From Apiotrichum sp. Y4204 (taxonomy: Eukaryota; Basidiomycota; Tremellomycetes; Trichosporonales; Trichosporonaceae): 64,000 nt of DNA. Below are positions 37,730 through 42,327 of this stretch, in pieces; the stretch's first letter is position 1, and every line of letters begins with the position of its first letter. The translations under genes and the position numbers were made by a program. Location: NCBI GenBank assembly GCA_025531455.1, contig JAMYHL010000088.1:62001-126000 (forward strand), given 5' to 3'. The notes under the pieces were generated by a model that saw only the letters and a program-made list of their open reading frames with translations, was not told the DNA's origin and made no database searches.

Positions 37730-40700
37730 ATGAGCGAAAACGCCGCATCTCACGGCCAGGACGCGGCGCAGGTCCACCCTCCACTGGTCCTCGACCCACC
37801 AGATCTCGAGCCAGAGGCCCAACCCGAGCCCAATCCTCCGCCATCCGACCCACCACCCAACACTCAGACGGGTGACGCTGAGCCTGGGGACTCTACTGCA
37901 CACGCGGGGGGTGCAGCGACTGTTCCCGATGCATCCGATGCTGCTGGGGCGACCGCCGAGGAGGACGCGCCGCCACCGACAGTGGTCGAGGCCTCGAGGG
38001 AGTTGCCACCGGCAGCTGTAACCACTGAGGCTAGCGATAGCAACCAATCGGCTCCACCAGCGGCTCCTGGGTCGTCTGAAGCTATTGAAGACCTAGGGAC
38101 AGCTCCAGATGAGACGCTCGACACTGATCTCGTGGCCGCGGCGGCGGCAGCAGCAGAAGCGGCGGCCGAATTCGACAACACGGATCTCGACAACACTAAT
38201 CTTGATGATGAGTCACTCCGTCTCGCAGCCGCATTGAGTGCTATCCCACCTGAAGACGATGTCGACGTCGATGTGGATGCCGAAAACCATCTCGACCCTG
38301 ATACGCTCGCGAACCTTGCGGCACTGACTGCCATCCCGGATGATGAGGAAGGCGCCGCCGAGGGCCAGGTTGACATGGATGTCGACATGACAGTTGAGCC
38401 AGAAGCACCGGCACAAGCGGGAGACACCTCGGCTCCAGCGGAAGCGGCTCCCCCTGAGCGTCCGGAGGAGGACGATTTCGCCAGCCTGCTGCGGGATGAT
38501 GCGTTCACCAACCAGGAGGTGGACGATATAGTCGCCCGACTCCTTCCCCCCGAACAGGAAACCACCGCACAGAGGGATGCTGCCTCTAAAACAGCGACGC
38601 CGAGAGTGGAAGCGGAGGGGGAATCAGAACAGGAGGCGTCAGGAAACGATACCGGAGACACCGAGTACCGCGCACCCCGCACATATTACGAGGACGGCAA
38701 ACTGAAACGGAGACGGAATAGGACCGTCTTGAGTTGTACAGAGTGCCATCGGAGAGTGAGTGCTTTGTGGATATTATAATGCATCTGCTGACACCATAGA
38801 AACGTATGTTATCTGGGTTCTTGTGGAGTGTATGCTGACCTGCCCCCTCGTCCATCAATACAGAGCTGGTTAGTTGTCCGTCTCTGACCTCAACTGACGC
38901 CAGTGCGATCGCAATATCCCCTGTAGCCGATGTGTGAAGCGCGGCGTTCCAAGCATGTGTCGAATGGAGTCGGTGACACCGCAGCGGAAAAAGAAGAAGT
39001 GCGTGTTGCGTACCATAAACTGCTAACGTCGAAGGGGCAACGACGACATCCGCATCAACTACGAACTCGGTTTACGAGTGCAAGCTCTCGAGTCGCTTAT
39101 TCGCTCCGGATCGAACGTTGACCCGGAGGCAGCACAGACAGCGGCATTGGAAACCGTCATGCAGGCAACACGAGCGGCAAACAACGGACAACCCGAGGCT
39201 GCGAACGCTCTGATGCAGCTCACCAGCGCTGGAGCCAGTCTGGACATGGGCCTGTCACCAGATGTGCAGAACACCATGTTGTTAGATGTCCTCCAGCAGC
39301 TCTCAGCGGCTAGCATCGGGCGACCATCGGAGATCCTGAACATCGACACGAACGGTGGTGCGGCTGCTGAACCGAAGGACATGTGGTCTGCAGTTCCTGC
39401 AGTAGTAGCCGATAATGCGCCGCCAGTCGACGACGTATCCAACGACAATGATGAGACGTCGGAGACCAAGCTCAATCTGGCGGTCCCAGGATTTCGTGAG
39501 GCTAGCGGGCGGGTGTTCCTTCCCCCGACGATGCGCCACGCCGAGAAGCGGTTACGGGAGACGAATCTGTTCAACCCCGGCGTCCTGCCTGTCCAAGGGT
39601 TTGAACCGTTTCTGGAGTGCGGAACTCGCTTCGCGTATGGGGAGGAGAATATTCCCTTCAAGCACAAGCGTATCGCGGCGATCCAGACAATCAGCATCAC
39701 CGGAGGACTCCGCCTCGCGTCCACCTTCTTGTCGCGATTCCCTGCTCTTACGACGCCGACGGACACACGCTTTGTCTATGTCCCCCTACCGTCTGTCGAA
39801 GAAGATGTCGCAGCTCTGCGGGTTGGCGGTCTGAAGGTCAAATACTACCGTTTCTTGGACCGGAAGACCGGTATGGTTGACTGGGAAGGAATGCGGGATG
39901 ACCTGCAGCGCGCCCCTCCTCGCTCTGTCGTGCTTCTGCACGTCAGCGGGTCAACGCCGACCGGCCTCGAGCTCACTGCCCCGCAGTGGCGCCTGCTGAC
40001 GACTCTCCTCCAAGGCCGGCAGCTTATTCCGCTTGTGATCATGGCGTTCCAGGGCTTGGCGAGCGGGGACCCTAGCCGCGACGCGCAGCCTTTGCGATTC
40101 ATGGTGCATGAGGGGTTACCTGTGGTTTTAGTGCAGAGCTTTGACGCGGTGGGTTGCATATTGTGTGTATTCAGCTAACCCACCAGATGATGGGCTTGTA
40201 TGCCGATAGTCCATCGATCGTTTCCATCGCGACACAGAACACGGACGACCGCGACCGCGTCAACTCCCAGCTCCGCACTATTGCGCGTTCAATGTATCTA
40301 CACCCGCCGTTGTGGGGCGCCAAACTGGCGCACATGGTGCTCGACGATCCGAAGCTGTTTCCGGCCTGGCTTGCGGAGATTAAGGCCTTGTCCGAACGTC
40401 TCCGCAGCGTGCGCGACAAGCTGTGCGACATTTTTGCTGTCAAGCTCAAGACACCCGGCAGCTGGACACACCTGCGGCGCGGAGTGGGAATGTACTGCGT
40501 CCTTCTCCTGCCCGCCCCGCAGCTCGAGGCACTCACCCAGAAACGCCAGGTCCACCTGCTCCGCGAGGGGTGTATCTCCCTGGGATGTCTGGACGTGAGC
40601 AAGATCGAGTCGCTAGCGCGCTCCGTCGACTGGGTGGTGCGCGAGTCGATCCGCGAGGCCGAGGAGCAGCAGGCGCAGAGCCTGGCGATGGAGCTCGCGC

Positions 40701-40963
40701 TCCAGGCCGCGACGGAGCAGCAGGCACGCGAGGAGGCAGAGGCCGCCGAGGCCGCCGCTGCCGCCGAAGCAGCCGCCGCACAGGCCGAGGACGCGATGCT
40801 CATCGAGGCGTCGATCCAGACTGCGATGGAGGCGCAGCGCGTCGAAGAAGAAGAGGAGCGCAGGCGTGAGGAAGAGTCGCGTCTCCTCGAGGAGCAGGTG
40901 CGCAAGGCTGCCGAAAGGGCAGAGCTTGAGCGACAGGCCGAGCTTATTCTCGCGTCGATTTAG
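37730..40963 (+). CDS. Zn2Cys6 DNA-binding protein fused to a degenerate aspartate aminotransferase domain
   Basis: Exons 37730-38755, 38800-38803 (4 nt), 38864-38868 (5 nt), 38904-38998, 39035-40148 and 40187-40963 give 1006 residues. Residues 1-325 are acidic, Ala/Pro-rich and probably disordered. A canonical Zn2Cys6 cluster occupies C336-C339-C346-C352-C355-C364 (CX2CX6CX5CX2CX8C), followed by a basic KKKK stretch. Residues ~530-905 align throughout with class I aspartate aminotransferase (IQTISITGGLR, VLLHVSGSTPTG, IMAFQGLASGD, SFDAMMGLY, RSMYLHPPLWGA, GMYCVLL). The catalytic residues are replaced: PLP Lys258 by A748, Asp222 by I712, Asn194 by T684, Trp140 by V631, Tyr225 by F715, Arg266 by S756, Arg386 by C877; the Arg292 equivalent (R782) and Ser255 (S745) remain. 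Residues 906-1006 form a Glu/Ala-rich coiled coil. Likely a nuclear regulator with a pseudoenzyme sensor or dimerisation domain. Confidence 0.9.
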
Positions 40964-41457: not shown

Positions 41458-42327
41458 CTAGATCTTCGGCGCGGTCTCGAGCTTCTTGACCTCCTCAAGA
41501 CACTCGTCGAGGCCCTCCTTCCACTCGGCGGTCTCCTCGGCGGAGGGCGCCTTGGCGTCCTTGCCGCGCTTGATTGGTGTAGAGCTGGCGTGAGATTATG
41601 AACAGGTAAAATACGGAAAGGCCACAGGACTTACCAGACGAGGACACACGAGGTGGCGCGCTTCGTTCCCGATGCGGCGCCGAGCTCCTCCCTGTCGTGT
41701 GAGCATTCGACCGACCAGGCAATATCATCAGTGACTCACTTGCTCACAACCCAGCAGTACTCGACACCAGCGGCGTCCTCAGCGAGGATGGGAAGGTGGG
41801 AGAGAACGTCGATCGGGGTGATGTTGGCGGCGAGGACGAGCAGGCCCTTCTCGCCCTTACGCAGCGCCTTGACGACCTCCTTGACGCCGCGCTTCAGTTG
41901 GCGTGCCTTGCTCGCGCGCTTCACCGTCTTGAACACCTTCTTTGAAAGCTTCTTGCCCGCCAGCGGCACCGCGATCGGGGTGATCGCCTCGAGGGGGACC
42001 TCGAACTCCTGCCATGTCAGTTGAAGGTCTACGGTGGGCTTGGGTGGACAAGTGTCGGTCGGATGAGAATTGTCCCTTGACATCCGAGCACACTTGCTGT
42101 CTAGGCCCAATCCAAAGCCAGACTCTAGACATCCAGCAGCCAGCGACATAGGAAGCACTCAGTCCCCCCGTCGCTGTTCCGCCAGCACTCGCGCTCACAC
42201 GCACCTTCTTGTCCTCGCCCTCGTCGGCAGCCAGGGACTTGCGCTTCTCCTTCTTGGCCTTCTTGTCCGCCGCGTCGAGCTCGGCAACGTCGCTCTTGCG
42301 CTTCTTCTTGGTCTCGTCCTTGGCCAT
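41458..42327 (-). CDS. NHP2: H/ACA ribonucleoprotein core protein Nhp2
   Basis: Exons 42327-42205, 42008-41740, 41691-41635 and 41584-41458 give 191 residues. A Lys-rich N-terminal tail (MAKDETKKKRKSD) precedes an L7Ae/Nhp2 domain: GVKEVVKALRKGEKGLLVLA, ANITPIDVLSHLPILAED, EYCWVVSKEELGAASGTKRA and TSCVLV. These are the RNA kink-turn-binding family motifs in the Nhp2 version. Family role: it binds H/ACA snoRNAs with Cbf5, Gar1 and Nop10 for pseudouridylation of rRNA, and telomerase RNA in some lineages. An acidic C-terminal tail of about 30 residues extends past the domain. The first intron is 196 nt, long for this window. Divergent from the aldehyde dehydrogenase gene, 360 bp apart. Confidence 0.93.

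Follow-up and report, generated by a model that had tools for sequence, protein, structure and literature searches.

A candidate Zn2Cys6 regulator of Tremellomycetes that carries an aspartate aminotransferase pseudoenzyme and a zinc cluster split by micro-exons

We analyzed a 64,000-nucleotide (nt) stretch of DNA from Apiotrichum sp. Y4204, here called the window, and one gene in it at 37730..40963 on the plus strand. The spliced product of this gene joins a Zn2Cys6 zinc cluster to a domain with the fold of aspartate aminotransferase (AAT), in which the residues for catalysis and for binding the cofactor pyridoxal phosphate (PLP) have been lost. The parts of the gene are as follows, with active-site positions such as K258 numbered as in AAT.

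37730..40963 (+): whole gene, ATG to stop; 1006 residues, six exons, five introns spliced out; the exon set matches that of a second copy in the genome
37730..38755 (+): exon 1; acidic N-terminal region (residues 1-320), basic KRRRNR stretch, Cys1 and Cys2 of the cluster
38756..38799 (+): intron 1, 44 nt (42 nt in the second copy)
38800..38803 (+): 4-nt micro-exon AAAC, unchanged in the second copy; fits the errors of ortholog models
38804..38863 (+): intron 2, 60 nt (59 nt in the second copy)
38864..38868 (+): 5-nt micro-exon AGCTG, from the splice model and the second copy
38869..38903 (+): intron 3, 35 nt
38904..38998 (+): exon 4; Cys3 to Cys6 of the cluster, basic QRKKKK stretch
38999..39034 (+): intron 4, 36 nt, separating the zinc-cluster exon from the AAT exon
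39035..40148 (+): exon 5; helical linker (NYELGLRVQALESLIR) and the N-terminal two thirds of the AAT fold
40149..40186 (+): intron 5, 38 nt (39 nt in the second copy)
40187..40963 (+): exon 6; remaining C-terminal third of the AAT fold, followed by a long charged helix
38735..38960 (+): Zn2Cys6 cluster C336-C364, CX2CX6CX5CX2CX8C (PF00172), interrupted by introns 1 to 3
39384..40642 (+): AAT pseudoenzyme domain (about residues 494-900), intron 5 included; from PF00155, PDB, and residue tables
40146..40148 (+): codon of A748, at the position of the PLP lysine K258, from the splice model and residue table; exon 5 ends directly after it

All five introns run from GT to AG and contain a CTGAC or CTAAC motif, which we take to be the branch point. 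The N terminus, MSE...VHPP, resembles the ortholog consensus MSD...VHP, in support of the gene model. The two tandem micro-exons encode K343-Q344-L345, immediately N-terminal to Cys3. We used a script to examine 20,775 GT-AG chains between 38680 and 38998 (223 with one intron, 4,513 with two, and 16,039 with three), with introns of at least 30 nt and, in the three-intron chains, inner exons shorter than 60 nt. Three of them gave an open frame with the six-cysteine cluster. The KQL spacer came from the three-intron chain only, the other two chains yielding SWL or VKL, and it resembles the KQH (five models) or KQQ (one model) spacer of the 6 among 30 ortholog models with an intact cluster. Skipping both micro-exons (4 + 5 = 9 nt) is in frame and would drop K343-L345.

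A preliminary description of this DNA had placed both domains in one continuous frame. This is not so, because five introns of 35 to 60 nt interrupt the gene and the cluster is split over exons 1 to 4. Its zinc cluster at C336-C364 was confirmed after splicing: PF00172 (Zn_clus) matches residues 335-365 with an E value of 4.8e-6, above the Pfam cut-off, and PF00155 matches in the same spliced protein. The spacing fits the Zn2Cys6 rule CX2CX6CX5-12CX2CX6-8C. No fungal middle homology region was detected by Pfam, PF00155 and PF00172 being the only families to pass its cut-offs.

The AAT part seems to start at W494, where WSAVP matches by eye the WAAVP start of the cytosolic-type AAT of the same genome. 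PF00155 (Aminotran_1_2) covers residues 521-875 with an E value of 6.7e-27. When the piece 514-912 (399 residues) was searched against PDB sequences, the best match was mitochondrial AAT (1ama), with an E value of 5.1e-69 over query positions 4-385. This match is far beyond chance. Judged by the PDB comparisons and by the fold in the ortholog model, the architecture of a fold type I AAT is complete. The VIA comparison spans essentially the AAT part of the ortholog model, and our fold assignment is confined to that part, leaving aside the linker and the C-terminal helix.

We then compared active-site positions in 49 pseudoenzyme rows (47 relatives, described below, and the two copies) and eight true AAT rows, two of which are partial and three cut. 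There are gaps because several of the pseudoenzyme rows are fragments. The position of the PLP lysine, K258, holds A in 36 rows, S in 8, and T in 5, and K in 8/8 true AATs. Aspartate at D222 is lost in 49/49 rows (I16, V15, M14, L2, S2). Neither Asn at N194 (0/47 rows scored) nor Trp at W140 (0/48) is ever present, and Arg is lost at R266 in 47/47 (S45, N2) and at R386 in 41/41 covering rows (C34, S5, H2, 8 gaps). The K258, N194, D222, W140, Y70, and S296 positions drift, mostly among small and hydrophobic residues. Ser is found at S255 in only 33/49 rows and Tyr at Y225 in only 13/49. In AAT, R292 binds the distal carboxylate. This Arg is kept in 47/47 rows, and Thr at T109 in 45/48. New residues predominate at N142 (E47, D1), H143 (D45, E3; 48 rows each), N297 (H43, R2, Q2; 47 rows), and F360 (Y in 39/42).

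The residues named in the preliminary description all fall where it had put them once the gene is spliced: A748 (K258), I712 (D222), T684 (N194), V631 (W140), C877 (R386), R782 (R292), and S745 (S255). It had left open whether the losses are general. They are, with K258 missing in 49/49 rows and D222, N194, W140, and R386 in all covering rows, and an intact Lys/Asp site, which in close relatives would by that description have marked this copy as simply decaying, occurs in none of the 47 relatives and two copies. A functional AAT is rejected because catalytic and cofactor residues are lost. The protein would therefore be expected, from these residues, neither to use PLP nor to carry out transamination.

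The relatives came from three word-based protein searches. In the first, 30 of 7,994 scored candidates matched at E ≤ 0.001; in the second, 46 of 7,992 at E ≤ 1e-30; and in the third, 38 of 5,137 at E ≤ 1e-5. The absence of relatives elsewhere holds only within these searches, and in two of them scoring was confined to the roughly 8,000 best candidates. We removed five true AATs (P0046, which keeps the lysine, and P0049 to P0052, from two plants, an agaric, and Leucosporidium, which keep the lysine motif). This left 47 entries, several of them fragments, 34 with an organism name and 13 without. Some of the 34 share a species, such as two Kwoniella bestiolae models. The named genera are Kwoniella, Cryptococcus, Naematelia, Saitozyma, Dioszegia, Kockovaella, Papiliotrema, Vanrija, Cutaneotrichosporon, Cryptotrichosporon, Filobasidium, and Naganishia, along with a Tremellales isolate. 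Three species checked taxonomically belong to three orders of Tremellomycetes, and the remaining named relatives are presumably Tremellomycetes as well. Some public labels, such as "aspartate transaminase aat1" and "PLP-dependent transferase," are contradicted by the residues. P0047 and P0048 have the pseudoenzyme near the N terminus, a long proline-rich tail, and no cluster, and might be a divergent lineage or partial models.

We built a tree from 24 rows, comprising 20 of 46 pseudoenzyme rows and four true AATs, two of them partial. One branch, with support of 100/100, splits the pseudoenzymes from the true AATs. Filobasidiales (83/69) separate from the other 17 pseudoenzymes (98/93), and long branches lead to both the pseudoenzymes and the AATs. 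We placed the root at the midpoint just to draw the tree, and a single origin is therefore its simplest reading but is not proved.

A search of the genome assembly (48.9 Mb, 182 contigs) revealed a second copy of the gene on contig C24, with an AAT part that is 99% identical. All six exons recur in it, with micro-exons identical to the letter, and its introns measure 42, 59, 35, 36, and 39 nt. The introns of the two copies differ in sequence and some in length, and the 242-nt stretch around the micro-exons, introns included, has 81% identity. By the Nei-Gojobori method over all 1006 codons, synonymous divergence (dS) between the copies is 0.176 and nonsynonymous divergence (dN) is 0.013, a ratio of 0.072. 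By region, dN/dS is 0.176 for the N terminus, 0.021 for the linker, and 0.039 for the AAT part, and dN is 0 in both the zinc cluster (residues 321-385) and the C-terminal helix (901-1006). The AAT domain is under strong purifying selection, which answers a question that the preliminary description had raised.

Genome matches are paired on contigs with near-equal scores (C24/C170, C46/C109, C111/C120, C115/C127, and C68/C113). Together with the dS of 0.18 for the gene pair, this suggests a hybrid or duplicated genome. The ordinary AAT genes are on C109/C46 (cytosolic type) and C115/C127 (mitochondrial type; types judged by eye). The nearest other zinc cluster in the genome is on C113/C68, with 62% identity over 39 residues, in a single uninterrupted exon. 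The frames downstream of it look by eye like a conventional middle-homology regulator.

Outside the two domains, the protein has further conserved elements, which we list with the neighboring features.

38291..38335 (+): short motif LDPDTLANLAALTAI (residues 188-202); ortholog consensus FDPATLANLAALSRI; residues 140-154 of the ortholog P0001
38504..38545 (+): second short motif FTNQEVDDIVARLL (residues 259-272); consensus LTREQVQEFVxNL; overlaps P0001 helix 195-206
40595..40960 (+): C-terminal helix of about 120 residues, running on from the last AAT helix; position transferred from P0001
36380-36694 (-): upstream open frame without a Pfam match
41736-42158 (-): piece of a neighboring gene, Ribosomal_L7Ae (PF01248, E = 2.4e-15), NHP2-like by eye

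The acidic N terminus (37730-38690) is otherwise variable around both motifs, and the AF2 model of P0001 has a pLDDT of about 30 over most of the region matching the exon 1 product. The counterpart of LDPDTLANLAALTAI in P0001 overlaps a predicted helix (142-158), and we consider this motif a candidate activation or partner motif. In the same model, a helix is predicted after the zinc cluster (337-354, pLDDT about 45-65), at the place where Zn2Cys6 factors have a coil-like helix for dimerization, and along the C-terminal helix (833-954) the pLDDT falls from above 90 to about 45. We considered by eye a ubiquitin-interacting-like motif in the C-terminal helix and dropped it as unsupported. Sequence similar to the L7Ae-gene side downstream of the gene also adjoins the second copy.

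By sequence and model, this is a protein with a Zn2Cys6 cluster and an AAT fold that has lost its PLP and substrate-carboxylate residues, and it belongs to a single clade of such proteins and is under strong purifying selection. The explanation we favor, with a probability of roughly 60%, is a Zn2Cys6 factor in which an AAT pseudoenzyme has taken the place of the regulatory domain and been retained as a dimer scaffold. The zinc cluster and the short helix that follows it would bind DNA as a dimer. The parent enzyme, AAT, is a homodimer, and the AAT fold could serve as the dimerization scaffold, setting the distance between the two clusters and presenting a surface for docking. The acidic N terminus with its conserved hydrophobic helix would be an activation region, and the long C-terminal helix may recruit a partner. 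DNA binding, dimerization, and activation are all predictions from sequence. In the simplest history, a Zn2Cys6 factor would have given up its regulatory domain and taken in a duplicated AAT instead. An arrangement of two separate genes is rejected by the 36-nt intron 4, by the second genomic copy, and by the 7/30 ortholog models with both Pfam domains in one predicted protein.

Several observations weigh against the favored explanation. By pattern, the cluster is intact in only 6/47 relatives, and Pfam finds it in 7 of the first 30. At the place of the micro-exons, 19/30 ortholog models break or change, and 5/30, including the Cryptococcus neoformans entry P0024, begin downstream of the cluster. 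None of the 17 later relatives (P0031-P0045, P0047, and P0048) shows it, many of these being fragments or downstream starts, and the long Naganishia models P0040 and P0041 lack it, as do P0047 and P0048. In P0001 the cluster is modeled at low confidence (pLDDT about 44-61). Furthermore, pocket positions have been fixed anew (N142 to E, H143 to D, R266 to S, and N297 to H) and R292 is kept, which leaves room for a ligand. Eight of 30 ortholog models run from CHRR directly to CDRN, with exactly the three residues (9 nt) of the micro-exons lost and the frame kept. P0002 retains part of the spacer, 10/30 keep the basic stretch with the cluster garbled or missing, and the Filobasidium model P0036 begins with MEAPFMPNRK, just after the cluster position. 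Exons as short as these are easily overlooked by gene predictors. If the breaks are errors of prediction, they fit micro-exons common to the class, as judged from the gene models.

The same models could be taken at face value. The cluster would then be vestigial or rarely included, and the protein would not be a transcription factor but a scaffold, or a subunit that modulates real AAT. Consistent with this, an intact cluster is absent by pattern from 24/30 ortholog models and 41/47 relatives, among them the Naganishia models and those that skip the 9 nt. However, dN is 0 in the cluster between two copies whose intron-bearing 242-nt stretch is only 81% identical, and proteins of Kwoniella and Cryptococcus, as well as one unnamed protein, share all six cysteines and the KQ[LHQ] spacing. 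With the habit of predictors to overlook such exons also taken into account, we consider this explanation improbable. Decay of an AAT gene that chance had fused or read through in this genome would account for the missing catalytic residues. Against it, the same loss is found in 49/49 rows, the overall dN/dS is 0.07, the clade spans three orders, and two ordinary AAT genes lie elsewhere in the genome. We reject decay on the dN/dS and the 49 rows, and give it next to no credence. Hardly more credible is an enzyme with altered, lysine-independent chemistry. Its fold and R292 are intact, and lysine-free PLP-fold enzymes exist in other families, but every covering row has lost, together, the N1 aspartate, R266 (which binds the phosphate), N194, and the stacking Trp.

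A more serious rival is a PLP-free ligand sensor, in which the vacated site binds an amino acid, a dicarboxylic acid, or another metabolite, and the ligand alters DNA binding or activation. The retention of R292 and T109 and the residues newly fixed at N142, H143, R266, N297, and F360 favor it. There are also precedents in the inactive AROM-derived repressors of ascomycetes (as proposed in PMC10512348) and in GabR, which has PLP (PMC6522883). However, the K258, N194, D222, W140, Y70, and S296 positions drift. Over 22 active-site positions, in a list that follows the AAT literature rather than coordinates, mean entropy is 1.131 bits, versus 1.089 bits over 375 columns. In 10,000 random draws, with rows unweighted for kinship, 61% were as low or lower (P = 0.61). 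The old pocket is thus of average conservation, an argument against a conserved ligand at the PLP site. The sensor is possible, and we would give it about one chance in a handful or slightly better. The preliminary interpretation, a fungal counterpart of MocR whose AAT fold is kept without PLP as a ligand sensor or dimer scaffold, stands insofar as one gene joins a Zn2Cys6 cluster to an AAT fold that has lost its catalytic and cofactor residues, but the pocket test gave no general support for a ligand. More doubtful is an ancient Tremellomycete parallel to MocR, in which metabolites are sensed without PLP via Arg292 and the new pocket residues and DNA binding is gated by splicing. The 9-nt skip would remove three residues between Cys2 and Cys3, and the skipped form should have a disarmed zinc cluster with the rest of the protein intact.

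Compared with other Zn2Cys6 (Gal4-type) factors, the window protein has the usual CX2CX6CX5CX2CX8C cluster, basic flanks, and a predicted helix with VQALESLI after it. However, its cluster is split by two micro-exons, and an AAT pseudoenzyme stands in place of the middle homology region. The AATs of the same genome share its fold, with 35-36% identity, but they keep K258, D222, N194, R266, and R386, none of which the window protein has. GabR-type MocR regulators consist of a GntR domain and an aminotransferase-like domain, whose dimerization enables DNA binding and whose aminotransferase-like activity is not essential (PMC6522883). The window protein resembles MocR, GabR, and PdxR in that a DNA-binding domain precedes its class I aminotransferase fold. 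In contrast to them, it is eukaryotic, has Zn2Cys6 and not GntR (for which there was no Pfam match at E values up to 10), and has lost the PLP lysine and its contacts. We reject MocR membership because both the GntR domain and the PLP lysine are missing. The fusion appears to be independent of MocR, and the protein may nevertheless work like MocR.

Fungi have also reused enzyme relatives in gene control. QutA itself resembles the first AROM domains. The ascomycete repressors QutR, GaaX, and TanX resemble AROM domains, and the QutA/QutR, GaaR/GaaX, and TanR/TanX systems reuse enzyme relatives, thought to be catalytically inactive, in Zn2Cys6-based regulation (PMC10512348). The gene cluster of a QutA/QutR-type system is described in PMC12610400. 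These systems differ from the window protein in that they use shikimate-pathway AROM domains and their repressor is a separate protein, whereas here a PLP enzyme fold lies in cis with the cluster. Pfam found no AROM-derived domains above its cut-off in the window protein. Among titles and the openings of abstracts in the open-access literature, we found no description of a Zn2Cys6-AAT fusion, and the C. neoformans paper PMC3990503, in its passage on a read-mapping setting, has nothing on the window gene.

Across three orders of Tremellomycetes, in yeast-like fungi that include Cryptococcus species and oil yeasts, the family stands as a candidate regulator with strong conservation. Much of the public annotation examined labels it as an aminotransferase or leaves it unnamed. 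Probably this is because the two micro-exons disrupt gene models at the cluster, in which case the factor may also be absent from transcription-factor catalogues. In it, apparently independently of MocR, a eukaryotic aminotransferase fold that lost its cofactor seems to have been recruited to gene control, and it looks like a metabolic enzyme turned into part of a genetic switch. The main interest lies in the conserved pseudoenzyme-regulator together with its micro-exons, and scaffold versus sensor makes a clear contrast.

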